Origin: a virus | Direction: 5' to 3' (one strand) | DNA: 25,439 bases | Virus record (IMG/VR): IMGVR_UViG_3300031803_000008 | Span: 1 to 25,439 of that record | In this document: positions 4,920-25,439 of the stretch, piece by piece | Layout: the number at the start of each line of letters is the position of its first letter | Numbering within the stretch: position 1 is the first letter of the stretch | Notes under the pieces: generated by a model | What the model saw: the letters and a program-made list of their open reading frames with translations, nothing else | What the model was told of the DNA's origin: nothing | The model's database searches: none | Program-made: the position numbers and the translations under genes

Positions 4920-5648
4920 TCAAACGATTCGCCTTTTGATGTGAATCGTTTGTGATGGATCTGCCAGGTCGCCCTCGACATCGAAGTCAATGCTCATGAA
5001 AGCCAGCAAGTCTGTTGTGATCTGATCGGCGTCAAACGCTTCTCGCAACCCAATAATTTCTTCGGACTGAAAGTTGGGCAGGAAGTGATAGTCTGTGAAG
5101 TCGAGTGTCCGACCATCATCGAGTGTGAACTGTGTGGCAAGAATGTGCGTATAGATTGCGCCCAATGTTTGAACGGTGTCGGTGCTTTCTGTGATGATTC
5201 CAGGTAAGATGATCCCGCCACACACAATACCAGTCGCCGTGTCGCTTTCGATCTCAATGTTGACAAGTGAAAGACCACCGACACATTCATTGGTTACAGA
5301 ATCGCGAACGCAAAAGAAGTAGTCCGGCTTGGATGGATCGGGATCATGCTCGCGATGTAATGGTCGAGTCTCCTGCCATTCCCTAAAGTCCAAGCCAGGA
5401 TTGGCCTCTAGGGCGATGTGAAAGGCAGTTATGTCGATTTCAATCTGTTCATTGTTGGGGCGACAAACAATATCGCCCAGCCCAACCCCGAGACGTGCAA
5501 AGATGCTGCCCATCTCTTGACACCATGCATTAAAGGCATCCAATGACTCACCGACGCCAGCAGATCGTTGGTCTGTGAATAACAAGTTATTTGTTGCAAT
5601 TAAAGCAGAGAACGGCTCGATGATTGGTAAGGGGTTGGCGTGTGGCAT
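4920..5648 (-). CDS. Uncharacterised protein of the fibre cassette (possibly GNAT-like)
   Basis: I do not recognise this 242-residue protein. It has no signal peptide or membrane segment. The middle contains DYFFCVRDSVTNECVGGLSL (residues 108-127) followed by TGIVCGGIILPGI (138-150). That pattern, a strand with D..TN..VG, then a G-rich strand, then a helix (TLGAIYTHILATQF), resembles the core of GNAT acetyltransferases. However, I cannot identify a convincing acetyl-CoA loop, so this is only a suggestion. The N-terminal half is helical with several Trp residues and an REHDPDPSKPD loop. The start has AGGAG 9 bases upstream. G+C is high for the window (33 in the row 5461-5520), like the 271-residue neighbour and unlike gp13-gp15. 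Position inside the fibre/decoration cluster suggests a virion or host-recognition role. Confidence 0.5.
   Translation of the reverse strand: MPHANPLPIIEPFSALIATNNLLFTDQRSAGVGESLDAFNAWCQEMGSIFARLGVGLGDIVCRPNNEQIEIDITAFHIALEANPGLDFREWQETRPLHREHDPDPSKPDYFFCVRDSVTNECVGGLSLVNIEIESDTATGIVCGGIILPGIITESTDTVQTLGAIYTHILATQFTLDDGRTLDFTDYHFLPNFQSEEIIGLREAFDADQITTDLLAFMSIDFDVEGDLADPSQTIHIKRRIV
4921..4952 (-). terminator. 10-bp perfect stem-loop at the 3' end of the 242-residue gene
   Basis: Bases 4921-4930 (CAAACGATTC) and 4943-4952 (GAATCGTTTG) are perfect reverse complements separated by 12 bases. In the minus-strand transcript the hairpin covers the last codons and the stop of the 242-residue gene. 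It is followed by an AU-rich but not uridine-only stretch, so it is not a textbook intrinsic terminator. It may act as a weak terminator or as a 3' end stabiliser. A late promoter box follows about 50 bases downstream, which fits a transcript boundary. Confidence 0.45.
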
Positions 5649-5675: not shown

Positions 5676-6491
5676 TTATATAGCTGAAGTATATCTGACG
5701 GTGAGCGAAGGGCGGTACGAATCGTTCCACGTCCCATCCTCCTGAACCAGACCTTGATAGTGATTGCCCGGACTGGGCCAATCTACATAAAGTTGGACGA
5801 GGACAGGAATTTTGCCCGCAACAATGTGACCTCTCAGGCTTTCTTGGTTGTCGATATAGTTTTGGAGCTGATCGACCAAGCCCGTGACATCCGTTGTTGC
5901 AGTCAGTTCGTCGCCGAACGAATAATTTTGAAATGTAACCGTCGTTAATGGAGTTGGAACTGATTTAAAGGCGGGCCCAGCAGATGCAGTCGTGTTGGCG
6001 GCGAACACTTCCGGGTATTCTACACGATCTTCTAGATATTGGCCCTCAAGCCTCTGAGCGAGCGGAACATCATTCAACCAACTTGTCCACTCCAAGACGC
6101 CTGTTGAATCTTCCCAACCACCCCCCGAAGGACCGGGCAGAACAAACCCGCCAGATATATCTAGGTCGTCTGTCCCCTCGACACCTAGCCCCCAGTATTG
6201 TAGTTTGACGCCTGTAATGGTTGCACCGGCTGGGACATCGACCTCGTACCGAGTGAAGATCACATGGTCAACCCTATTGGATGCCTTTGTTCCATATCGG
6301 CCCAGTAAATATGAAGTTTCGGTTGAAAATGTTACTGTCGCAGTCTTGCCGACATATGCATCGGGGTTGTGCGTCGTACCATCGACAGCGGGCGATGGAT
6401 CATAGGTTGTTTCGGTTGTTTCATACTCGATAAGAGGAACAGCACTAGCAGCACGAATCTGTGTAATTTTAGTTGAGAGCCCAAGCCTCAT
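5676..6491 (-). CDS. Beta-rich putative virion decoration or fibre protein (DNRLRE-like)
   Basis: This 271-residue protein looks like a beta-jellyroll domain. FTRYEVDVPAGATITGVKLQ (residues about 79-98) followed by YWG resembles the start of DNRLRE/disaggregatase-type carbohydrate-associated domains, in which a strand ends in a P.G..I..A.L.. motif. The C-terminal SYRPSLTVRYTS (258-269) is the usual closing strand of such domains. A Gly/Pro-rich loop PGPSGGGWEDSTG lies in the middle. There is no N-terminal signal. The start has AGGGGG about 10 bases upstream and lies 12 bases after the stop of the spike-base-like gene, so the two are probably co-translated. A role as the shaft or tip that sits on that base protein is inferred from adjacency only. 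G+C is high (37 in the row 6121-6180). Confidence 0.55.
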   Translation of the reverse strand: MRLGLSTKITQIRAASAVPLIEYETTETTYDPSPAVDGTTHNPDAYVGKTATVTFSTETSYLLGRYGTKASNRVDHVIFTRYEVDVPAGATITGVKLQYWGLGVEGTDDLDISGGFVLPGPSGGGWEDSTGVLEWTSWLNDVPLAQRLEGQYLEDRVEYPEVFAANTTASAGPAFKSVPTPLTTVTFQNYSFGDELTATTDVTGLVDQLQNYIDNQESLRGHIVAGKIPVLVQLYVDWPSPGNHYQGLVQEDGTWNDSYRPSLTVRYTSAI

Positions 6492-6882: not shown

Positions 6883-7500
6883 CTAGGACATCCTTTCGCT
6901 AGGAGTATTTATCCTATATTTATCTATAGTTGTTCTGTATTTGTCAATCCACTTTTCTGAAAAGAGAAGATAGCCATTCATGCTATATTTAGGGCCGCTG
7001 ATTGGGGGGGTTCCACGGTGCATGTGGGTCCAGGCTGTCGGAAAAAAAACAAGCCGCCCTTTGAGCGGCTGGATGCGTATCTTTTCTGGAGTTTTAAATT
7101 CAGTATGCCCACCTTCTTCGACTGTGTTCAGATAACATTGAATGGCCAAGAATCTTCGGAAAGAAAATGGTCCAGTCGAGTCGGTGTGCCAATCATGAAA
7201 ATCGGCAACAGGTTCATATTTCTTGATGGCCAGCGATTCAATTTCACAATCTTTATATTTGGCCAATGATACAAATGCATTGTCGGCCTTAAAATATTGG
7301 CTCATGTGAGCTTCAATAATTTTGAACATTTGTTCCGAAAGTGTGTCGTCTATTGCAAGAAACACTTCGGTGTTGTGTTTGGCTGGATTGTCTCTTGTGA
7401 CCTTGTGATCAGAAGATTCAAATGCCTCAATGAGTTTGTCACATAATGACGGGGGAATGGCCTCGTCATACCATCGTATAAAATTTTCCACTTGTCTCAC
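6883..7500 (-). CDS. 2-oxoglutarate/Fe(II)-dependent oxygenase (prolyl-4-hydroxylase-like)
   Basis: This 205-residue enzyme would couple oxidation of 2-oxoglutarate to hydroxylation of a substrate. The iron-binding facial triad is visible: HTD (His105 and Asp107) within FHDWHTD, and His161 in THMHRG. Lys171, ten residues after His161 in GPKYSMNGYL, is placed to bind 2-oxoglutarate. The LKGRLVFFPTAWTHMHRGTP stretch is typical of the prolyl-hydroxylase branch, and length fits a single catalytic domain. Such genes are common beside fibre genes of marine T4-like phages; the substrate is not established here. The start taken is GTG at 7500, the first start after an in-frame TAA. No Shine-Dalgarno is visible, and a second GTG three codons on is possible. 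G+C is low (21 in the row 7201-7260), unlike the fibre upstream. Confidence 0.88.
   Translation of the reverse strand: MRQVENFIRWYDEAIPPSLCDKLIEAFESSDHKVTRDNPAKHNTEVFLAIDDTLSEQMFKIIEAHMSQYFKADNAFVSLAKYKDCEIESLAIKKYEPVADFHDWHTDSTGPFSFRRFLAIQCYLNTVEEGGHTEFKTPEKIRIQPLKGRLVFFPTAWTHMHRGTPPISGPKYSMNGYLLFSEKWIDKYRTTIDKYRINTPSERMS
6906..6924 (-). promoter_or_regulatory. Two tandem GATAAATA late-promoter-like boxes
   Basis: On the minus strand GATAAATA occurs at 6913-6906 and again at 6924-6917, 11 bases apart, about one helical turn. Each differs from the T4 late consensus TATAAATA only in the first base. They lie inside the last 45 bases of the oxygenase gene and 25-43 bases before the ATG of the spike-base-like gene at 6881, a normal distance for a late promoter. 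The coding requirement there (KYRTTIDKYRIN) explains part of the repetition, so the call is tentative. Confidence 0.4.
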
Positions 7501-12578: not shown

Positions 12579-15500
12579 TTATTCAACGGCAATTGCTCTT
12601 AAATCACTCACGATAGGAACTATTAGAGGATCATTACTTTGCATTACAATCTTAATTGCAAACTGATTGAATGTATTATATTGCTGGGCAGAAGGTTGAT
12701 TGCCTGATTCGGTACCCTCTGCGCCAAATTGGGGAAGCAAAGAGCCGTCGGCGGTTTGGGTTTCGTATGTCAAAGGGAAGGGGTCGGTGCCTGGTCCAGA
12801 GAACCTAATTTCTCGGAAGATATCTGCGCTCGGAGTTACTTCGGCTGAATATCCCTGATTTCTGGACATTAGTTTCCATCTCTTCTTCTCGAAAGGTTCA
12901 ATGTCAGATATATTCTTGACTTTGCTATAAACCCAAACTCTAGTTCCTCTAGGCTGTGATGCCGTCAAGTATATCTTAATGTCTGTTGCCTCTGCGCCAG
13001 GTAACAGTATAACCTTCTTAGTCATGTATCGTGCAAGGAAGTTTCCAGGACCAGCTGGTTCATCTTCACCATGATATTTAATTACTGCGCCAGTTCCAGT
13101 AGTTGTAGTAATAGAAACATTTGGACTGTGCAAATAAGTATTTCCAACATTAGATAGTGTCACACCAACTATTGAGCTGGTACCATTGATTATAGGCTTG
13201 CCAATGGCACCAATTCCAATTGCACCAGGAAGCATTTCAATATTAATAGTATCTTGGTCAGAATATCCCCCTCCAGCACTTTCGATATAGAATCCACCCC
13301 CTATGTTATTTCCCCCGGCATAGTCGTCAGTTGCAATAAAGTTGGTAGGCCAGGTGTTTGCATATAAATTCCCATCATTGATAAGGTTTCGGATCATTGT
13401 CAATGAAAGTCTTTCTAGGTTAATCATCGGAGAAATGTTTTCACTGACCGTAGAAATTATTCCTTTAAGCAGAAATGATCCTGTCTTATTATTCAGGAGT
13501 TTTAGAGTATTGGATGGGACGGTATCTTGATGCAACTGTAATGGTGAATAGTCAAATGGATTAAGAATCAATGGATTAGGAACACCAATATCTGCCTTTG
13601 TGGCTGCTGCATAAGAAAACGTAGTGAATCCAGACGGGAAATCTAATGTAGACGAATCAACACGGAAGCGATGATATAGATATCCATTTGGACTTGCTCC
13701 ACCATCTTCGCTGTTAATACTACTATAGAATTTATGTGCAGAAGTAGAAGTTGACGGAGTGCCTAGTCCATCTACACCCGATGGAAGGTTTACATGGGCA
13801 AGGGGATTATGAACCCTGAACTGTGGTGGAGTGTACTGTGTCATTGCATTAGATGTCTTCCAAATTGCAGTTCCTACTGAAGTTGGATCAAACTTGCACT
13901 TGTGTAATCTGAACATCATGTCTTGATTAACTTCAGGCTGCCAAGTTGTACCGTTTTGAGACTTGAACAAGGATCCAAGGTGCGGTTGACTATCAATCGT
14001 CACAGCAGGAATACCAGTTTCTCCCCCAGTACCGACTGAACTTGCTCCAACCTTTGCAGTCCAAACTTCATATTCAATACTATCAGAAAGCAGCACAACT
14101 GCAAATTCATTGCCGCCCGCCAGATACACAGGATAATCAAACTTGAAGTTAGTTATTGTATCATTATTAGCTGTAGATGGTAAATCATTCAGGCCACCAG
14201 AACTTACGGTAATATTAGTTGGATATCTGATAGCCCGTCCTAGAACATGGCCTCCATGAGGAACACCACCAATGGTGGGGCGTATTTGAAGATTAACAGG
14301 AAGACCTCTGTTTGAATCAGAAATCACAGACGAATCTGGCTTTGTAGCAAACCAAATATCAACACTATCAATGAAGATTCCTTCTGGATACTTATGAGGA
14401 TCAACCAAAAATGATTGAGCCAAGGGATCCAGATGACAAATTGTTCCAACTTCAATTTGTCGTCCAGTTTCAGAAATTTCTGTCAACTGAGTTGTTGTAA
14501 TTCGAGAATCAGTAACACTATTGGTTATTGTCTCTATTCCCATTACATCCATAGTATATGTTGCACGAGTTTCAATTACACCCGAAGCCCTGAACGTGCC
14601 TATACCAAAGGAATGAAGACTTTCCGAATATTTGTCAGAGGAATCTCGTACCTGGAAGGATTTATTACCCACCAAGAATCGAGTTAGATCGCTGGTCTGT
14701 TCATCAGATGTTGCATTTTGTGAATTGAAGAGGTCTTGCGTACCAGCAGGTCCAGGATCACCCTCTTGTTGTTTGGACAGGAGAAGGTTGGCCCAATTAT
14801 AATTGGGAACATGGAAGACACCAAATAACTGGCCAGCAGGAGTTGTTTTATGATCGCTAATACTATATCGACTTTGAGTGTTGGGTGTGGGCTCGCTGAA
14901 ATCGCTCGATACGATTAATTGATTTGTAACATTACTATAACTACTAATTGTTCTAGATTGACCATAACCACGACCTTCTGTAATATAAATTGTCTTACCA
15001 TAGAGATCGACCCCAGGACTTCCTCCGGGCTTATCTTTGGCTCGGCCGGCGCCTACCCCAGGGGCCTCTGTTGTGTACCAACTCTCCGAAGTAGCCGCAG
15101 AATTATCTATTGTAATTGTTCTTGCATCAATTCTATTCTGAACAGTTCCAGAATAGTGTTTGTACGAAACAACCGTCCGAGTTTGTCCAGTGCTTATAGT
15201 TCCTGATACGATGTCTCCAACATTAAACATACCATTTGCATTGACAATAAAGTGGGTGTTTCCATAATTCCCAACAACAAGTCCAATCCCATCTTCTATT
15301 GCACCAGAGTATAAAAGGTCTTCGTTGTTTGTTGCGGAACTAAACGGAGTAACTCCAAATGCGGCCGACACGCCGTCATTGTGTCTCAACACCAATTCGT
15401 TTGCTCGTTCGGTATATGGTCGAATGTCAACATCATCAAAGGACGGATACATTACTGTAGTAGGCTTTAATCCATGCACTCTAAACGAAATATCAATGGG

Positions 15501-18500
15501 ACGCATGTATGGAGCCAGGTTTGTATTTACAACAAATTCACCAACTTCAACCTGCTCACTAGTCACGTTGAATGTGTATTCAGTTCCTTGTCGGGTCTCG
15601 GCAAGGGTTGCTGTTTTATATACGGTTGCAATTTCATCATCAAAAATATGGGTTTGCAGAGGAACAGCCTGATAGGAATGTTCATCTTCTCCGAACTTTT
15701 CTCTATAAGTTCGCCAGTCTGTTCCGGGTACATCAAAATCTTTTATAACTGTTGTACCCAGGTCAGTTACGAGGTTAGTAAGATCATCTGCATTCTCATA
15801 ACCCGTGTCGGTCGCATGACCCAGGTTGCCAGTCCCGGCCTGGTCGACCAGTTGATTTACTAGTCCAAACGGAATTTCTTGCATTACCCTATCAAATGCT
15901 CCGGTCGGATCTTGCGCCGAATATATAGTGTCGCCAACCTGCACTTCGCCATACCAATCGGTTTCCCACTCACCCCATTGGGTCATTGATGGGCCCATTA
16001 TATCATTTAATGTGACCTCCAGGGCGTGCAAGTCATATTCCCCAGAGGTATCCAGATGAACTTCGCCTGCATCAATAACTGATTTCCATATGTCAGAGGT
16101 TGGTGAAAGGGTAACCGTACCTCGGAAATTCTGAATCTGGAAGGGATTGATGTTTTCTGCACCATCGCCGGTGGCTCGCACTTGCTGTAGGTCTGAGTCA
16201 TAAACAGTAGTATAAGGCAAATGCATAACACCACTAGAGGATATAATATCTTGACTTAATGCCTCATCGAAATTTAAAGAAATATTTTCAGTTTCGACGG
16301 CAGGTCGCAAAACCCCCTTACCAATAGCTGCTTGGAAATCTGGATTTGGTCTTACTCCTGGGATACCAATATCAGCCAATGCAAGTCCAGTATAGAATGT
16401 ATCTACAAGGAATCCATGCTTAAATCTTTCGAGGTTACCACTTGCATCCATAATGTTTAAGTCGTTAAGGTCTTGTTCCATCAAAGACAATGACGAATAA
16501 TATTCTAGTCGATCAATGCGACCATCCATCTTACTAATGTCTTTCATCGTCCATCGTCGATTATTTGTTTTCAGGATCGAAATATCACGGGCTTTAGGTG
16601 TATATGATGGCAATGCAAGCTGGAAGAGTGTCATGTCAGCAGGATCTACAGTAGGCGGAATAGCAGGGGCAATATCATCTGTTCCAGAAACAATCTTGAT
16701 AAATCCTGTGTTTGCGCTTCTGCCCGTTTGATTCAGAGACAATACAATTTTGTCAAATCTAGGAGCAAAATATTGCATATCATAAATCATATTTCCCTGC
16801 GAATCTGGATGTAGGACTGTTTCATTACTTACTGTATGATCTAAGTCCGGCGCGGAATAGATAGGAACAAAATAATTTGTGTTGGCTACCGAAGCGGCCG
16901 CTCCTATTCTACGAGAAGGTCGAAAATCAATATACTCTCGCAGATCATATCTCTGGCCAGTCTTAGTCGAAATAAATCTGGTAATATTATCAATGGCCAC
17001 TTGTCCTGCATATGAATCTACAGTAAAGAATCCTGACTTATCTGTATCTGTGTGATTAAATTTATCAAAGACTACTGCCAATTGTCCGAGTGGGGCTGGA
17101 GCTGAGGCCTTTAGGACAATGGATGAATAATCATATAGGTCTTCACTTTGTCCATGATCTAATTCATAATTTGCCGTGACTCGATAGTCGGAATTGTTTA
17201 TCATATCATAGGTGGGCGCAAGATTAATCTCACCCGAATCATATACGTCAATAATTCTGTATACATCAGGAACACCAAGACTGTCATTATTTCCAGTCTG
17301 TTGGTTTGGAGCAGCAATAACAACATGGTTGTTTGTGGTAAGGTTTGTTATTACAGGACCGGCTGCCGGCAGATTTCGTAAGTTACTCCCTCGCGACAAA
17401 GTTTTGCGCTTTGGGTTCAATGCAGTAATTTTAACAGGAGCAATTAGACGGACAACTTGGCTGCCACTAATGAAAGGAGAGTCAATAGTTATTTGACTGG
17501 GAGTCGAACCCGCATCCAGGGTCCAATCATCGGGATCAATAACCTTGCCTGTGGTTTCATTGATTACCGTCATTGCCCTTTTGGATCTTGTTGCAAATCC
17601 AGCCGATGCCCAACCAGAGCTTTGATTTCTAAGGGCCGTAATTGGAAACGCGGCTGTCCCAGAGGAGGCGGGATCAGTTTGAGAATACTTTGCATAGTAG
17701 GTGATGTTATTTCCTGTGGCGCCGTATGAAATACCATTCGCCATTCTTGCGCCGCCAACAGGCATCTTGAATATCAATCCAGGATGTGTTCCGCCACCTA
17801 GAATAGCCGAATTTGCAACTGTTCCTATCTGTGATATATTACCGTTGGCTGCTTCTTTATTTCCTATGACACCACCGGTAGCAGCTCCAACGGCCGTTGT
17901 GAAGTCATTCACTCCAGAGGCGACAATACATCCGTTGCCCGTTGCTGCTGCACGAAGATCAAGGCTAAGAACATACCTTTCCTGGCTGCCAGGCCATTCG
18001 TTATTTGCAGAAGGCTGGTTAAATGGCGCATTAAGATAGACTATTGTGTCTGTACCAATATCATTGTCTGATTTAACAATTGTTCTGGACTGACCAACAA
18101 ATTCTGGATGATAATGCGAATATGTAATTGTAAGTTTTCCGCCTATATAGGCATTGTTAAAATCACTTGTATTTGCACTTTGCAGTCTGATACCGTCTGC
18201 GCCATTTCCCTCGATCATTGATTCGACAGGGACATTAATACAATTTCCTGTGATTGCATGAGAACCCTCAAAGTCTGTGATGTATATTGCATGAGTATTT
18301 GCAGTAATAGGAATAATATCTCGAATACGAAAATGGCCTAATTTGGTGGAATTGTATTTCACTATGCTGTCGGTATCAACAGCAAAGGTGTTTACTGAGT
18401 GAATATCCATGACAGGCAATCGACCCGTATCAAAATATGAAATGGTTCCTGGAGTCGGAGCTTGCCCGGCCAAATCTTTGATGGCCGTAATTGCACCATG

Positions 18501-19727
18501 ATTTAACGGTGTCGTGACATTAGGTAATATCGCCGTCTTTCTGGCCCTTTCAATATATTCAACCCAAGGTGTGCCCTGTTCATATAGATGGCCTCGAATA
18601 TAGGCTTTGGATGATGTCTTACCTTTCATGGGTCCTACTATTACTTTAACTCGATCACCACCAACAATATCTTCGACGCGACAATCAAAATCATCTATGA
18701 CAAAGTTACCACTTTCATCATATGTTCTCCGAGCCTGTTCATCTTCCACGAAAGCACGAATAGGTTCTTGATTTCCTGGAGTGGCATAGGCTCGCTGGCC
18801 ATTTTCAATTCGCATCAATTCAACAAAGTCTTTGGCGGATGCCGGATTGATTGAAGTTCCATCAGAACCCGGAGCCTTAGAGAAGTCTAGGGCAACCTTT
18901 AGTCTGTGCGCGCCAGGAGCATATGTTGTATATGTTCCTTGTGCATTGTCATAGAGCGTTCCGTCTTCTTCTGGAGTAACAATAGACTCCACAATATTAA
19001 AACCAATTTTATAGGTTGGGCTGGCAGAATATTTGTCAAGAACAATTTTTTGCTTAGGTACATAGGCAAAATAACCACCCGTTGATACAGTCACAAAATA
19101 TATACCAGTTGCAATTGAAGCATAACTGGCTCGGCCAACGGCACTGCCTGTCAATGTAACTGTTGTGTTGACTACTGCGCTAAACGAATCGGGAAATCCA
19201 GCAGGGCTACCAATCTTTGTGATGTAATCATTTCCAGAAAATTTATCGCCTGACTCATAATTAATAAGAAGCGTCGGTGGATCACTAGCTTCTCGTCCAG
19301 AAGCAAAAACAACTTGAGCCACAGGCTTTCTGATTGTGCCATCTGCATCTGTAACATATATCTCACCATCATCATCGGTACCATAATCTCCTGCGGTTGT
19401 TGCATCCAGACCAACCTTGATACCTGTCAATGCAGTATTAGAATATGCAGCCCAAACATTAATTTCGTTATTGTTTGGATCATTGCCTATATATTCTGAT
19501 AATTTAATATGGTCACATTTGTTATATGCTAGTTCGCCATCAAGAATCCGAGAACCATGAGTAAAGGAATGCTTACCCTGACGTTCAATTTGTTTTTGCA
19601 GATTTGTCTGAAGCTGTGTCAGTTCCCGAGCCTGGACTGCATATCCTGGTCTGAACAAGATACGATAAAATTGTTTGTCATCGGCATAATCATCCCAGAA
19701 AGGGGAATTATTCGTAGTAAGAGGCAT
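12579..19727 (-). CDS. Giant DUF4815-type baseplate/fibre structural protein
   Basis: This 2382-residue protein belongs to the large structural family of marine T4-like phages that begins with DUF4815. The N-terminus has FRPGYAVQARELTQLQTNLQ (residues 26-45) followed by KQIERQGKH, a highly characteristic signature. Further family landmarks are GLKPTTVMYPSFDDVDIRPY (about 1418-1437), DPLAQSFLVD (near 1766) followed by a strand-rich domain ending in a SDS.EYEVW segment, and YMTKKVILLPGAEATDIKIY (near 2232). The C-terminus is FAIKIVMQSNDPLIVPIVSD plus LRAIAVE. Between about 2160 and 2225 are two copies of a G.GY/GNTY...P.V.I strand repeat often found in marine phage virion proteins. It occupies the place of T4 genes 9-12, so a peripheral baseplate role joining wedge and fibre is likely. 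AAGGAAA lies about 10 bases before the ATG. Confidence 0.88.
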   Translation of the reverse strand: MPLTTNNSPFWDDYADDKQFYRILFRPGYAVQARELTQLQTNLQKQIERQGKHSFTHGSRILDGELAYNKCDHIKLSEYIGNDPNNNEINVWAAYSNTALTGIKVGLDATTAGDYGTDDDGEIYVTDADGTIRKPVAQVVFASGREASDPPTLLINYESGDKFSGNDYITKIGSPAGFPDSFSAVVNTTVTLTGSAVGRASYASIATGIYFVTVSTGGYFAYVPKQKIVLDKYSASPTYKIGFNIVESIVTPEEDGTLYDNAQGTYTTYAPGAHRLKVALDFSKAPGSDGTSINPASAKDFVELMRIENGQRAYATPGNQEPIRAFVEDEQARRTYDESGNFVIDDFDCRVEDIVGGDRVKVIVGPMKGKTSSKAYIRGHLYEQGTPWVEYIERARKTAILPNVTTPLNHGAITAIKDLAGQAPTPGTISYFDTGRLPVMDIHSVNTFAVDTDSIVKYNSTKLGHFRIRDIIPITANTHAIYITDFEGSHAITGNCINVPVESMIEGNGADGIRLQSANTSDFNNAYIGGKLTITYSHYHPEFVGQSRTIVKSDNDIGTDTIVYLNAPFNQPSANNEWPGSQERYVLSLDLRAAATGNGCIVASGVNDFTTAVGAATGGVIGNKEAANGNISQIGTVANSAILGGGTHPGLIFKMPVGGARMANGISYGATGNNITYYAKYSQTDPASSGTAAFPITALRNQSSGWASAGFATRSKRAMTVINETTGKVIDPDDWTLDAGSTPSQITIDSPFISGSQVVRLIAPVKITALNPKRKTLSRGSNLRNLPAAGPVITNLTTNNHVVIAAPNQQTGNNDSLGVPDVYRIIDVYDSGEINLAPTYDMINNSDYRVTANYELDHGQSEDLYDYSSIVLKASAPAPLGQLAVVFDKFNHTDTDKSGFFTVDSYAGQVAIDNITRFISTKTGQRYDLREYIDFRPSRRIGAAASVANTNYFVPIYSAPDLDHTVSNETVLHPDSQGNMIYDMQYFAPRFDKIVLSLNQTGRSANTGFIKIVSGTDDIAPAIPPTVDPADMTLFQLALPSYTPKARDISILKTNNRRWTMKDISKMDGRIDRLEYYSSLSLMEQDLNDLNIMDASGNLERFKHGFLVDTFYTGLALADIGIPGVRPNPDFQAAIGKGVLRPAVETENISLNFDEALSQDIISSSGVMHLPYTTVYDSDLQQVRATGDGAENINPFQIQNFRGTVTLSPTSDIWKSVIDAGEVHLDTSGEYDLHALEVTLNDIMGPSMTQWGEWETDWYGEVQVGDTIYSAQDPTGAFDRVMQEIPFGLVNQLVDQAGTGNLGHATDTGYENADDLTNLVTDLGTTVIKDFDVPGTDWRTYREKFGEDEHSYQAVPLQTHIFDDEIATVYKTATLAETRQGTEYTFNVTSEQVEVGEFVVNTNLAPYMRPIDISFRVHGLKPTTVMYPSFDDVDIRPYTERANELVLRHNDGVSAAFGVTPFSSATNNEDLLYSGAIEDGIGLVVGNYGNTHFIVNANGMFNVGDIVSGTISTGQTRTVVSYKHYSGTVQNRIDARTITIDNSAATSESWYTTEAPGVGAGRAKDKPGGSPGVDLYGKTIYITEGRGYGQSRTISSYSNVTNQLIVSSDFSEPTPNTQSRYSISDHKTTPAGQLFGVFHVPNYNWANLLLSKQQEGDPGPAGTQDLFNSQNATSDEQTSDLTRFLVGNKSFQVRDSSDKYSESLHSFGIGTFRASGVIETRATYTMDVMGIETITNSVTDSRITTTQLTEISETGRQIEVGTICHLDPLAQSFLVDPHKYPEGIFIDSVDIWFATKPDSSVISDSNRGLPVNLQIRPTIGGVPHGGHVLGRAIRYPTNITVSSGGLNDLPSTANNDTITNFKFDYPVYLAGGNEFAVVLLSDSIEYEVWTAKVGASSVGTGGETGIPAVTIDSQPHLGSLFKSQNGTTWQPEVNQDMMFRLHKCKFDPTSVGTAIWKTSNAMTQYTPPQFRVHNPLAHVNLPSGVDGLGTPSTSTSAHKFYSSINSEDGGASPNGYLYHRFRVDSSTLDFPSGFTTFSYAAATKADIGVPNPLILNPFDYSPLQLHQDTVPSNTLKLLNNKTGSFLLKGIISTVSENISPMINLERLSLTMIRNLINDGNLYANTWPTNFIATDDYAGGNNIGGGFYIESAGGGYSDQDTINIEMLPGAIGIGAIGKPIINGTSSIVGVTLSNVGNTYLHSPNVSITTTTGTGAVIKYHGEDEPAGPGNFLARYMTKKVILLPGAEATDIKIYLTASQPRGTRVWVYSKVKNISDIEPFEKKRWKLMSRNQGYSAEVTPSADIFREIRFSGPGTDPFPLTYETQTADGSLLPQFGAEGTESGNQPSAQQYNTFNQFAIKIVMQSNDPLIVPIVSDLRAIAVE

Positions 19728-19755: not shown

Positions 19756-21690
19756 TTAAAATTCAACAACAATTTTAATTTCTTCTGACTGTTCGATTGA
19801 TCGAGTAATAGGAGTTCTATTTTCGAGATATAAAATATCACCCGTCTGGGGTTGTAGTTCAGGTGCGTATATGATCGGAGTTGGGGGCGTCAATGCATCT
19901 GTAAGTGTCACGACAATAGCTGCACCAACACCATCAACAAAATGACCATTTGCCGTTACATATGTAGTCGAGGGTTCGGCTGATGTACCCTCTATATCTT
20001 GAAGTTTTCCGATTTGTTCATTGTTCAAGAAAGTTGTAGATGATGAATTTGCAGCCGAGACATTTCCAAGAATCAAAATACCATTACTATGTGAATTATA
20101 ATCAATCACCCGCGCAGTAACTCTAGAGAGAGATCCTATCACCTCGTCATCAACTGCTGGAGTCCACACGGTGGACCCTTTAAGATTACCTGGCCCTTCA
20201 GTAGTATTTGCAGTAACCCAAGTGGCCTGTCGAATTGTGAGTGTATTTGCATACCAATTCTTACCTGAAGTTGCAGTAGCAAGAATTGTAGGAATAACTC
20301 CAGATCCTGGTCCTGCATAGCCTTCTTTCAAATACGGATTTCTTAGTAATCCAATAGTACGATACTCGTTTGTCACAGGGAATGAATTTCCTATTCCAGC
20401 ACCAGTCAAAGATTTTGCAACAATTACATTATATGCATTGAGTTCTGATACAGGATCAAATCCATGCCCACCTGATGGAGATAGCACACCTCGAATATTT
20501 TGTCCGGATGCTGTAGCCTCGCCAACAACAACAACATTTGAGGTCGTATAATTATTACCTGCCTGCCAAGTATTTACTTGAGAAATTGAACCACCAGATG
20601 TACAAATAGCATAGGCATTTGCATTGTTTCCATCACCTAGTACCTCTAGTCGAGGACCAATATGATAGCTTTCTGGAGTCGATCCGGCGACACTTGACGG
20701 AGCGAACTTAGCCGCAAAACTTCCATCTCCCTCCACAGTAGTTCCATATAACAAGACAGCCTGCGTTAATGTGCCACCGCCCGACATTGTAAGGGTTCCA
20801 TATTCTTTGATGATTCCAACACCCTTTTGATATGTAGTATTGGAGAGATAAATAGATGCACCATTATAAAAGCCCTGCTGCGGATTTGCAGAAGTTGATA
20901 ATCGTAAAAATGTCGTATTGGCTGCTGTATTCGGAATTGTTTTTCGCTGAACCTCACTTAACCCACCCGAATGCTTTGTAAATCCTGATCCCTCCGAAAT
21001 TATCACATAGGTTTCAATTGAACCATTGTTGGCACGTTCTTGAATCGTGGCTTGGTTATTGTATCCGACAGGAGGGCCATCCAGTCCTCCAGCAAGTTCT
21101 GTGTGTACATTAAGTGTGCGAACTGGAATATAATTCGTAGTAAGAAATTTTGCTTGGCCAGTAGGAATGGTGAACATGTACTTCCAACGATAGCCATCTA
21201 CTTTAGTAAAAGGGGTATGTATGATTGAATCGGAGTTTGGCCTTACTGGCCTTACTGTCGATGGCACACCACCATTATTATCTAGGCACTTGAATACATC
21301 ACCGGCACCACTTTCGTAGACATAGAACGAGGCGAGTCCTTTTGTAATGGCAGGATTTTGGTCATCGTATGCAATATAGGAATCTCCTGCTGTCCAATTA
21401 TATCGTTTTGCACCAAAAGAAATATCCGAGTTTGCAATAAGTCGTTCGGCTGCAATCATGTCATTCCAAGGTTCGTACACATTTCCTTGAATATCGCCGT
21501 CAGGAGTAGGAATAAGCGTATCACTATATCCTGCGTGTGTCTTGTCCCAAGACAAAGCCTTGCCAATAAACAAATACATATAAGTTATGCCTTCAATGTC
21601 TGAACGACCACCATTTACTGCTTCTTCAAAGGAATTAATAAATTCTTTGGCGTTGGCTATTCTAAAGCTAGATGTCACGACTGCTGGCAT
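19756..21690 (-). CDS. gp8: Baseplate wedge protein gp8
   Basis: gp8 is a dimeric component of the T4 baseplate wedge that joins gp7, gp6 and gp10. Here it has 644 residues against 334 in T4. The N-terminal VTSSFRIANAKEFINSF and ITYMYLFIGKALSW (residues about 35-48) match the gp8 start. GDVFKCLDNNGGVPS and DGYRWKYMFTIPTGQAKFLT (about 170-189) match the conserved core. The C-terminal GDILYLENRTPITRSIEQSE plus EIKIVVEF (617-644) aligns well with the T4 C-terminus as I recall it. Between these lies about 300 residues of extra strand-rich sequence containing GGHGFDPVSELNAYNVIV, seen in marine T4-like gp8. GGAGA lies 8 bases before the ATG, and a CATAAATA late box is 40 bases upstream. Confidence 0.92.
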   Translation of the reverse strand: MPAVVTSSFRIANAKEFINSFEEAVNGGRSDIEGITYMYLFIGKALSWDKTHAGYSDTLIPTPDGDIQGNVYEPWNDMIAAERLIANSDISFGAKRYNWTAGDSYIAYDDQNPAITKGLASFYVYESGAGDVFKCLDNNGGVPSTVRPVRPNSDSIIHTPFTKVDGYRWKYMFTIPTGQAKFLTTNYIPVRTLNVHTELAGGLDGPPVGYNNQATIQERANNGSIETYVIISEGSGFTKHSGGLSEVQRKTIPNTAANTTFLRLSTSANPQQGFYNGASIYLSNTTYQKGVGIIKEYGTLTMSGGGTLTQAVLLYGTTVEGDGSFAAKFAPSSVAGSTPESYHIGPRLEVLGDGNNANAYAICTSGGSISQVNTWQAGNNYTTSNVVVVGEATASGQNIRGVLSPSGGHGFDPVSELNAYNVIVAKSLTGAGIGNSFPVTNEYRTIGLLRNPYLKEGYAGPGSGVIPTILATATSGKNWYANTLTIRQATWVTANTTEGPGNLKGSTVWTPAVDDEVIGSLSRVTARVIDYNSHSNGILILGNVSAANSSSTTFLNNEQIGKLQDIEGTSAEPSTTYVTANGHFVDGVGAAIVVTLTDALTPPTPIIYAPELQPQTGDILYLENRTPITRSIEQSEEIKIVVEF

Positions 21691-21764: not shown

Positions 21765-24700
21765 TTATACCTTTTCTGGGCGCAACACGACTTTACCTGG
21801 GCCTATTCCTCTGAACTTATTGACACCTCCGGTGCCCTCTACTGCAAATTTTGTCTCGGCATTTGGATTCTCGTCCATGATTGTCATGGCCAACTGTCCG
21901 CCTTCTGACTCTACAAACGAACCATTGGCGTTTGGATAGATGGCAATGAGGCGTCTTCCATTTACATTACTAAAGGTAGTGGCATCTATAGATGTTATAG
22001 TTTCGCCATCATGCATCGTAATATATACACCTTCACTGAAATTATTTGCGCCAGTAGAAAGATTCCCTGGATCTCCACCAGTAAAGGCACTATTGGATGT
22101 TTTGGCCCCAAGGACGAAACTATCAATGCTGGCTGTTTCGAAAGACCACGAACCCCCACCAACCCCGAAATCAATATTCGATGTATACATTTGTGAGTTT
22201 GCGACAACCTGTAGCGTCGAGAATTCTGTATTGGATTTATTATACAAAAGCAAATCTGTATTCGATCCGCGAGAATAACAGAATAGATTCGCCATACCAC
22301 CAAAGTAAATTCGATTTCGACTATCGACTTGCAATTTTTGATAGTTGTTTAAATAGTAAAGGTAAGGATTTTCGGTATCGCCGATACCTTGGCGAGAAAA
22401 TCCAAGAATATGATGATTAGCACCGCTACCACCATGATATTTTAATGTATCGCGGAAATAGTTGTCAGGAAAGACCTGTTCGATTTCTGCATCACCAATC
22501 TGATAACTATATCCCTTGGGCGTGATTCGATACATGGTGTTTGCACTCATGTAATATAAATTAGGAGGTTCTTCATGGTCTAATACCATGCCTGCACATG
22601 ATTGTGACGCTCCATCCTGGTTCATATCAACGAGATAAGGAAGGAAGCCACTTCCCGGCACAGCAGTAAATCCTGATGTATTCGCAAAGACAGGATAGAC
22701 ATTCTTGGTATAGTGTATTCCAGTTGCAACATTTTGTGTTGTCACAACATGATAGCAATAGACAGAATTTGCACCTCTATTAGTTGGATCATATCCAGTA
22801 TCGCAGGCCACGAACAACGAATCTTTTGGACCAGGAATAATGTTTGTCGGGCTCCAATTACCAAGCACATCATTGTTTGCATCAATGGTTGTCGGAATTA
22901 CAAGCTCGAATACTCGACGACCAGGCAACTGCCCCACAAAATCACTTGCAAGTCTTACCACCCCATTTGCATATGAAGCATTTGCGGCAGGAAGAATCTT
23001 GATAATATTTTGCGAACCACTTCCCACAACATAGAGCGAACCTAGATCATCGGTAGAGAAATCCACAAAAGAACCAGATCCTCCTCCAATTTCTGTGGCC
23101 TGCCAGTGAACAGAAGATTGACCATATAAATCATCACTCCCAACCATCACACCAACACCGCCTGATCCTCCTGTGTTTCCCCATAGAATTTGTTCGACGG
23201 AGTAGGTGTTAGACCTTCCTCGTGATGTGCTACCAACAGACCTTAGGTTATGGGGATCTGCTGGTTCAGATATATCAGTCTGAACATTGGCTGTAGGTGT
23301 CAATCGGAATAACATCAAGGGCTTGCTATCATTCGGCGAGTCGAAGCCCGGATAACCTCCCGTATGGTCTTCATATACATAACCAACATATAAATTATCA
23401 TTGACATCTGTATCAAGAAGAACTGGACCGCTGAACTTTCCATTAGCCGTTAAGTCTGAGCCAACATAATCCCCGAGCGCAGGAGAGCCAGGAGCAGTTC
23501 TCAAAAATTTCTCTGAGTCAATAATTTCGGTGACAATCCAATCAAGATTGTTTGCGGTATTTGCAGAGGCCCGGAAAATTGCTCCATTAGAATTAAAAAT
23601 CTGATCGTTTGCATTTAAATTAGCTGGAGAATAATTAACTATACTCTTATCCGAATGCACATAGAGAACAGGTGCCCCCCGAGTAATTTCACTAGGTTGT
23701 ATCGAGGACGGAGCCACACTGGCCGAGAAATCTCCAATCGTCTGATTGGTCATGTCCGTAGATTCTACTGCACGCCTACGATTATAAGACCCCATGCCCC
23801 CAGTTCCGGATCCAGATGAAGTCCAATTATCATGTGTGGTGTTGGCAACATATCCTAGCGGAAGTGCATACGAACCACGAGGCCATCCCGTTCCATCGTC
23901 TGCTTGAATCCATTCAATCTCAAACTTTTCATTTGCATTGTCGGGTTCGTAGCACAAGTGAAAACCAATGTAACCAATTCGACGCCCAGGGCCTCCATCC
24001 TGAGGAGATTCTCCTGTAGAGGCATCGGCATCTTTCCACGTTAGGGCGCCTCCAGACTCCATCAGTTCGGTGAGAGAACCACCATTTTGTGGGATATAAA
24101 AATTAAAAGCCTGGTCCTGGTAATGTGCAAATCCAAGACTATGCATATCCCATTCTAGAATATGCCATGGGCTCTTTGTATCTGGTGATGCATCGGCAGG
24201 TATTATGAGCGTCGAAGGTTGGGCCGTATTGGCCGAACCAACATACTTTGATCTGTCAGGCACGTACCATGCCGACAACCCCGTACCTGGACTAGGTGGC
24301 CAACCAATGATTAATGATGGAGCTGTTGTATTCCATTCGGTTGGTGTCAATCCCATTGTGGGAGAAAATAAACTGGCTCCACTTGCAGGTTTTGTTTCTG
24401 GTTGACATGCACCCAACCAGGAATCTGCTCCATATCCACCAGGGCCTATTCTACGAACTTTCATTCGTACATATCTATTAGTGTTTCCATCAATATCCAA
24501 TGGTGAAGTAATACCAAATCCAGCATGATAATAATCAGTTTGGCCTTCAGGTGAAGCTCCTTCTAACTGTCTTTCTATTTCGAGGACTTGGGTTGTACCC
24601 TCTAAATCCGTGTACTCCAGTTGCCCGAAGAAATGACCCGGCGAAACGGGATCAACATTCCAGTTTCCGGTAGCCAGGGACCATCCTTTTTGTAAATGTC

Positions 24701-25439
24701 CAAGAGAAGCTAACGGGGTCTGGGAATTTCCCGGTATTCCAGCTTGGTCATAATCCCAACCATAGCTTTGAGTAAACAAGGCTCCTACATTTGCATTTTG
24801 ATAGGCAGTTCCTAGGATTGTTCGGAATCCCTTGATGTTCCAAATTAACGAATCGCTGGTTACTGTCGTATATGAATTTGATGTTGCAAAAGGAATGCTA
24901 CCGGTGACATCTAGATATGGCCATAAATGAGAAGCAGGAGCCGATGCGTTTTGAATACTACTATTTGCATAATAGTGCGAGTTTGCATATGGACTTGTCA
25001 ATGGAGACTGTTCCCAGGCAATCCATCCAGGCGAACCAGGAGTATGTCGTCCTGCTCCATGTGGATTCACACCATGGGCGGCATCAAGATCAAACTCGTT
25101 TCTTCCTGTATTGTTCAGTCCAAATCGAGTATGATAGGCCACCCCACGTCCAGCAAGGGGAATGTTTGCATAATCAGACAGAAGGGACGATTCTGCTCCC
25201 ATATAGAATTCGCGAATCAGGTCCAGAATGTCTCCCGAGAATGTTTCGCTAAATGCATTCATTCTAACCGAAGCCAACGATTCAATGCTGACCAAACCAA
25301 ACATGGCAAATCCAGCAGGGTGTGTCAGTTTCTTAATGACTTCTTTATAAACTTCAATTGACAGTCCAGATTTAAGAACATAGGAATAAATTTGATAGTA
25401 TTTGTCATCTTGAATATATTTTGAGAGCCATGCATTAGT
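21765..25439 (-). CDS. Giant baseplate protein in the gene 7 position, 5' end outside window
   Basis: The frame is open from base 25439 down to the stop at 21765, 1224 codons visible; an internal ATG at 25304 is not the real start because the frame continues upstream without a stop. The edge segment, YIQDDKYYQIYSYVLKSGLS followed by KKLTHPAGFAMFGLVSIES, is a motif I associate with large wedge/structural proteins of marine T4-like phages. Position directly before gp8 matches T4 gene 7 (1032 residues), but I see no firm gp7 signature. Two accessory regions stand out: a jellyroll-like region (about 23890-24700) with WHILEWDMHS and KFEIEWIQADDG, resembling carbohydrate-binding folds, and a region (about 22270-23420) with five recurring strand pairs such as LQVDSRNRIYFGG and VDFSTDDLGSLYVVG, suggestive of a beta-propeller. 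The stop is 74 bases before the gp8 ATG. Confidence 0.7.
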   Translation of the reverse strand, partial: TNAWLSKYIQDDKYYQIYSYVLKSGLSIEVYKEVIKKLTHPAGFAMFGLVSIESLASVRMNAFSETFSGDILDLIREFYMGAESSLLSDYANIPLAGRGVAYHTRFGLNNTGRNEFDLDAAHGVNPHGAGRHTPGSPGWIAWEQSPLTSPYANSHYYANSSIQNASAPASHLWPYLDVTGSIPFATSNSYTTVTSDSLIWNIKGFRTILGTAYQNANVGALFTQSYGWDYDQAGIPGNSQTPLASLGHLQKGWSLATGNWNVDPVSPGHFFGQLEYTDLEGTTQVLEIERQLEGASPEGQTDYYHAGFGITSPLDIDGNTNRYVRMKVRRIGPGGYGADSWLGACQPETKPASGASLFSPTMGLTPTEWNTTAPSLIIGWPPSPGTGLSAWYVPDRSKYVGSANTAQPSTLIIPADASPDTKSPWHILEWDMHSLGFAHYQDQAFNFYIPQNGGSLTELMESGGALTWKDADASTGESPQDGGPGRRIGYIGFHLCYEPDNANEKFEIEWIQADDGTGWPRGSYALPLGYVANTTHDNWTSSGSGTGGMGSYNRRRAVESTDMTNQTIGDFSASVAPSSIQPSEITRGAPVLYVHSDKSIVNYSPANLNANDQIFNSNGAIFRASANTANNLDWIVTEIIDSEKFLRTAPGSPALGDYVGSDLTANGKFSGPVLLDTDVNDNLYVGYVYEDHTGGYPGFDSPNDSKPLMLFRLTPTANVQTDISEPADPHNLRSVGSTSRGRSNTYSVEQILWGNTGGSGGVGVMVGSDDLYGQSSVHWQATEIGGGSGSFVDFSTDDLGSLYVVGSGSQNIIKILPAANASYANGVVRLASDFVGQLPGRRVFELVIPTTIDANNDVLGNWSPTNIIPGPKDSLFVACDTGYDPTNRGANSVYCYHVVTTQNVATGIHYTKNVYPVFANTSGFTAVPGSGFLPYLVDMNQDGASQSCAGMVLDHEEPPNLYYMSANTMYRITPKGYSYQIGDAEIEQVFPDNYFRDTLKYHGGSGANHHILGFSRQGIGDTENPYLYYLNNYQKLQVDSRNRIYFGGMANLFCYSRGSNTDLLLYNKSNTEFSTLQVVANSQMYTSNIDFGVGGGSWSFETASIDSFVLGAKTSNSAFTGGDPGNLSTGANNFSEGVYITMHDGETITSIDATTFSNVNGRRLIAIYPNANGSFVESEGGQLAMTIMDENPNAETKFAVEGTGGVNKFRGIGPGKVVLRPEKV

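Follow-up and report, generated by a model that had tools for sequence, protein, structure and literature searches.

A giant gp7-type baseplate wedge protein of a T4-like phage that probably ends in a beta-propeller

A truncated gp7 gene and its neighbours

The window, that is, the whole 25,439-nucleotide stretch of viral DNA that was analysed, ends within a giant minus-strand gene, the reading frame of which is 5'-open and truncated at the contig edge (Table 1). This gene is gp7 of a T4-like phage because its product and that of the relative L001 match wedge families, a gp8-type gene is its neighbour, gp13-17-type genes are also found in the window and the window terminase is ~63% identical to the terminase of Synechococcus phage S-PM2. 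The first 63 visible residues form a core segment common to the giant gp7 proteins of cyanophages and of other T4-like phages, and they gave matches to T4-type wedge and virion structural families and to cyanophage-type giant proteins. The window fragment matched phrog_17744 at 1.8e-11 and scored 17.2 against a cut-off of 27 for PF23786, most of the matching region lying beyond the contig. L001 carries the entire gp7 gene (3258 aa), and the full-length protein matched PF23786 (Baseplate_wedge) at 4e-11 and phrog_964, the T4 gp7-length family, at 2e-7. The gp7 gene lies directly upstream of gp8, and gp8 is found downstream of it in the window, L001, L151 and L034, a count that leaves out a 652-aa ORF at the corresponding place in L002; in the window the gp6 side of gp7 is off the contig. 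The gp7 position proposed in the initial annotation is thus borne out by the N-terminal matches, the L001 matches and the adjoining gp8.

Table 1. Features of the gp7-gp8 region, in window coordinates; residues are numbered from the first visible residue of the gp7 product.
Feature	Positions	Strand	Details
gp8-type baseplate wedge gene	19756..21690	minus	directly downstream of gp7
Giant gp7-type baseplate wedge gene, 3' part	21765..25439	minus	1224 aa visible
Candidate propeller domain	21900..23684	minus	residues 586-1180; seven LYV-type segments
Possible segment b6, GVYITMHDG...GRRLIAIYPNANGSF	21918..22031	minus	residues 1138-1174; weak
Segment b5, LQVDSRNRIYFGG	22296..22334	minus	residues 1036-1048
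Segment b4, LDHEEPPNLYYMSANTMY	22530..22583	minus	residues 953-970
Loop site of the L002 insert	22779..22784	minus	residues 886-887; window without insert
Segment b3, GPKDSLFVACDTG	22794..22832	minus	residues 870-882
Segment b2, VDFSTDDLGSLYVVG, then QNIIKILP	23022..23066	minus	residues 792-806
Loop site of the L151 insert	23256..23288	minus	residues 718-728; window without insert
Segment b1, LDTDVNDNLYVGYV	23376..23417	minus	residues 675-688
Segment b0, LYVHSDKSIVNYSP	23625..23666	minus	anchor at residue 592; overlooked in the initial annotation
Region between core and candidate propeller	23715..25202	minus	residues 80-575, ending ...KFEIEWIQADDG
Conserved gp7 core segment, YYQIYSYVLKSG...HPAGFAMFG	25251..25439	minus	residues 1-63

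Other genes of the window were also recorded. Directly after gp8 lies the gene of a 2382-aa protein (12579-19727) belonging to phrog_358, a family of unknown function, with a DUF4815 match (E 2.5e-34). A 205-aa protein assigned to phrog_61, 2OG-Fe(II) oxygenase (6883-7500, E 4e-40), is encoded amid the tail-fibre genes, and two ORFs of 242 and 271 aa (4920-5648 and 5676-6491) gave no match in PHROGs or Pfam.

A giant gp7 extended by a long C-terminal tail was common among the loci compared, the tails ranging from <200 to ~3000 residues. One such protein (L077:5586-11561) has a YHYH domain (PF14240, E 8.9e-29) at residues 34-135, upstream of the core segment, and another (L074:4104-10082) has a Laminin_G_3 lectin-like domain at residues 1745-1924 (E 8.3e-11), close to the end of the tail. 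In the window protein, the region between the core and the candidate propeller gave no family match and, judged by eye, is possibly a beta-sandwich.

Blade-like segments and the putative fold

Five segments with a D..(G/N).LYV-type strand had been likened in the initial annotation to blades of an NHL/SGL-type propeller. All five are present on the minus strand (22296-23417, residues 675-1048), with their L/I-Y/F-V anchors at residues 683, 802, 875, 961 and 1044. The resulting spacings are 119, 73, 86 and 83 residues, so that the 81-85 given earlier for the last four holds only roughly; similarly, only two segments (NIIKILP, TMYRITP) have a clear second strand of the N.I.K..P type, the others matching it more loosely. 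Two further copies flank these five, at residues 592 and 1138, the latter being weaker, and the whole array extends over about residues 586-1180.

Several tests of repetition were carried out on the window protein. A 420-aa stretch contained five separated motif hits, whereas none of 3000 shuffles of the C-terminal 651 residues gave more than three; this density is support and not proof, since the motif was defined post hoc. When each segment was left out in turn from the blade profile, b1, b2 and b5 scored above every non-member position and b4 above all except a single one; b3 and b0 failed to outscore all non-member positions of the protein. Comparison of single blades with one another by hhalign profiles gave nothing significant. 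The motif alone is not diagnostic, since single copies also occur in unrelated gp7 tails. The gp7 tails of L074, L077 and L078 carry several hits, and that of L074 has, by eye, no blade pattern.

A divergent homolog, the gp7 of L034, lies on another contig; of the loci compared outside this clade, L034 has the core and gp8 that score nearest. By eye, NHL-like blades are visible in the L034 tail, and the mean self-similarity of these repeats was above that of all shuffles (0 of 300 reached it). Alignment of the L034 tail with the window-family domain beat all 295 control slices taken from other gp7 tails (p ~0.0006-0.002 by Gumbel fit), and L034 supplied four of the top 60 blade-profile hits against 0.6 expected. 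The registration of the window protein on L034 is consistent between methods for b0-b2 and differs between local and global alignment for b3-b5.

Structure prediction gave no usable model, either for the window domain with two relatives (pLDDT 27.3) or, when the window and L001 were added to it, for the L034 tail (pLDDT 26.0); both runs used three-row alignments, which may explain the low values. As the AlphaFold models were unusable, the fold was inferred from sequence. Membership in a propeller family model was not found, and the PDB profile matches were confined to weak ones to Pizza6. Searches with single blades and with L034 against Pfam, NCBIfam and PDB returned nothing significant. With a two-blade profile of b2-b3, all four PDB matches at E<=10 were to Pizza6, designed propellers of the NHL type, at E ~0.011, a value that sums over weak repeat hits (E ~450 each alone) and comes from a sub-region picked after inspection. 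MAFFT misregistered the blades when they were aligned with their loops, and a loop-trimmed blade alignment was used instead; its profile gave nine weak hits in the PDB, with gliomedin and teneurin, both propeller proteins, among the top at E ~0.5.

These observations point to an oversized gp7 that probably ends in a beta-propeller. The NHL type named in the initial annotation is the best reading, given the weak Pizza6 matches, the L034 repeats and the inserts between blade segments described below, and it stays unproven, the models being unusable. The strongest competing explanation is that beta-sandwich or fibre-like beta domains follow one another along the region and that D..(G/N).LYV turns recur in their strands by chance, the window protein having no propeller at all. 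It would account for the absence of any propeller or other match when the whole domain was searched against Pfam, NCBIfam and PDB profiles, for a motif-free self-alignment of the window protein that was not significant (16-20% of shuffles equalled it) and for single LYV copies, e.g. SLYVFLD, in unrelated gp7 tails; however, the motif count, the Pizza6 match and the similarity to the repeat-bearing L034 tail speak against it, and we consider it unlikely, with perhaps one chance in four of being right.

Relatives and in-frame loop inserts

The family comprises four members in the collections searched, namely the window, L001, L002 and L151. Over the C-terminal 650 residues L001 is 81% and L002 76% identical to the window, and L151 is 80% identical over the candidate propeller domain. 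The L151 contig is binned in a Flavobacteriales MAG, a label that may be a binning error. Scans of viral contigs and genomes with queries from this clade and from L034 returned only L001, L002, L151, L034 itself and L098, and tblastn of phage records returned no relative of the window's candidate propeller domain. L098 is near-identical to L034; its gp7 and phrog_358 genes are broken up among several reading frames, a pattern that sequencing errors or decay could leave.

Two members carry extra domains at loop sites where the window has none. In L002, 285 additional residues follow LFVACDTG in frame (L002:8832-9686). Six PD40 stretches were recognised in them (E 2.5e-28), and they match TolB structures in the PDB (E 3e-18), which marks the insert as a TolB-type propeller; the NCBIfam TolB equivalog scored 125.6 bits against a cut-off of 343, and the insert is, from its sequence, the TolB-like propeller part only and not a TolB ortholog. 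In L151, which does not have the L002 insert, a 214-aa module follows LMLFRLTPTA in frame (L151:1508-2149). This module gave no family match, and it shares 45% identity over 206 aa with residues 968-1141 of the L001 gp7 (E 5e-41), a different place in the protein and a region absent from L002. Viral contigs and phage records yielded no copy besides that on the L001 contig.

Both inserts separate conserved blade segments, and in the four-member family all indels spare the LYV anchors. If strands are assigned as in NHL propellers, the L002 insert would fall in the b-c loop and the L151 insert after strand c.

A possible propeller platform in the baseplate wedge

The C-terminal ~600 residues would most likely form an NHL/SMP30-like beta-propeller with long loops and, if closed, about six or seven blades. 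Carried by the gp7 core, such a domain would act as a platform in which the strand segments are near-fixed, while the loops vary and can house complete extra domains. The platform may be exposed at the baseplate periphery. Its likeliest role would be binding to the host surface, to a glycan or an outer-membrane component, with the loops and inserts determining what is bound. A glycan-binding or protein-docking platform had also been suggested in the initial annotation, and either function is conjectural. Taken together, a giant gp7 wedge subunit with a C-terminal propeller platform, exchangeable loop domains and a likely host-surface binding role is a reading that we hold to be evenly poised between right and wrong.

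The main functional rival keeps the propeller and gives it another use: other parts of the tail, either the fibres or the two neighbouring proteins of 2382 and 1589 aa, would dock to it as a structural platform, and it would not bind the host surface. The T4 gp7-gp8 neighbourhood organises peripheral parts of the baseplate, and this role, together with the strong conservation of the blade segments (73% of anchor-region positions are identical in the four members, a modest difference from 62% elsewhere), would favour docking. Loops that vary and, from one close relative to another, accommodate different complete domains are nevertheless more typical of an exposed and changing surface, and we judge a docking role improbable, slightly more so than the beta-sandwich string. 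That the two inserts are assembly chimeras and no true domain insertions is conceivable in that the L002 and L151 contigs are each a single metagenome-derived assembly, but the frame is kept at both junctions of both inserts, the same conserved gene continues on either side and a homolog of the L151 module resides within another gp7 of the same clade, which leaves this explanation hardly credible.

A wider version of the platform reading, in which the gp7 propeller is a domain-display scaffold, can be offered as a tentative and rather doubtful proposal. Its loops would repeatedly receive foreign domains, a TolB propeller among them, modules would move between gp7 sites, and host range would be tuned in the wedge subunit and not only in the tail fibres. 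If so, a wedge subunit usually viewed as structural would itself evolve as a device that binds surfaces and takes plug-in domains, which would help to explain the size and variability of gp7 in the T4-like phages of these collections. It would also provide a natural case of a propeller with a second propeller in one of its loops.

Among the known systems compared, likeness to TolB/PD40 propellers is confined to the L002 insert, and the window has no such insert. The giant gp7 of Kyanoviridae, such as the 3515-aa protein of Synechococcus phage S-RSM4, also precedes gp8 and has the same core segment and a long variable C-terminal extension; in contrast, among the tails compared, a detectable relative of the window domain occurs only in L034. 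Propellers have been described in other phage proteins. The myophage CBB has Kelch-propeller proteins, one of them in the virion (PMC5259590), which differ in being of the Kelch type and separate proteins. PRD1 P2 has a distorted five-bladed propeller (PMC4901313). The receptor-binding protein Gp45 of phi11 has a five-bladed propeller platform with a cavity proposed for GlcNAc (PMC4901313); it resembles what is proposed for the candidate domain, a phage adhesion device that has a propeller for its platform, but it is a separate trimeric protein of a siphophage, while the window domain is part of a baseplate wedge subunit. PhiKZ gp131C has a C-terminal seven-bladed propeller (PDB 4GBF), is located on the baseplate periphery of a myophage and is suspected of receptor binding (PMC4901313). 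The likeness lies in a C-terminal propeller on a baseplate protein, with periphery and receptor binding presumed for gp7. A difference from the present protein is that the description of gp131C does not make it a gp7 wedge protein or place it within a gene order of the T4 type, and loop inserts of the kind found in the window's relatives are not mentioned for it (PMC4901313). In the literature searched, the coverage of which was incomplete, no description of a propeller in gp7 was found. The initial annotation had regarded a propeller as not standard in a T4-type wedge protein; this seems right for gp7 specifically, but in phage adhesion devices propellers are already known (PMC4901313).
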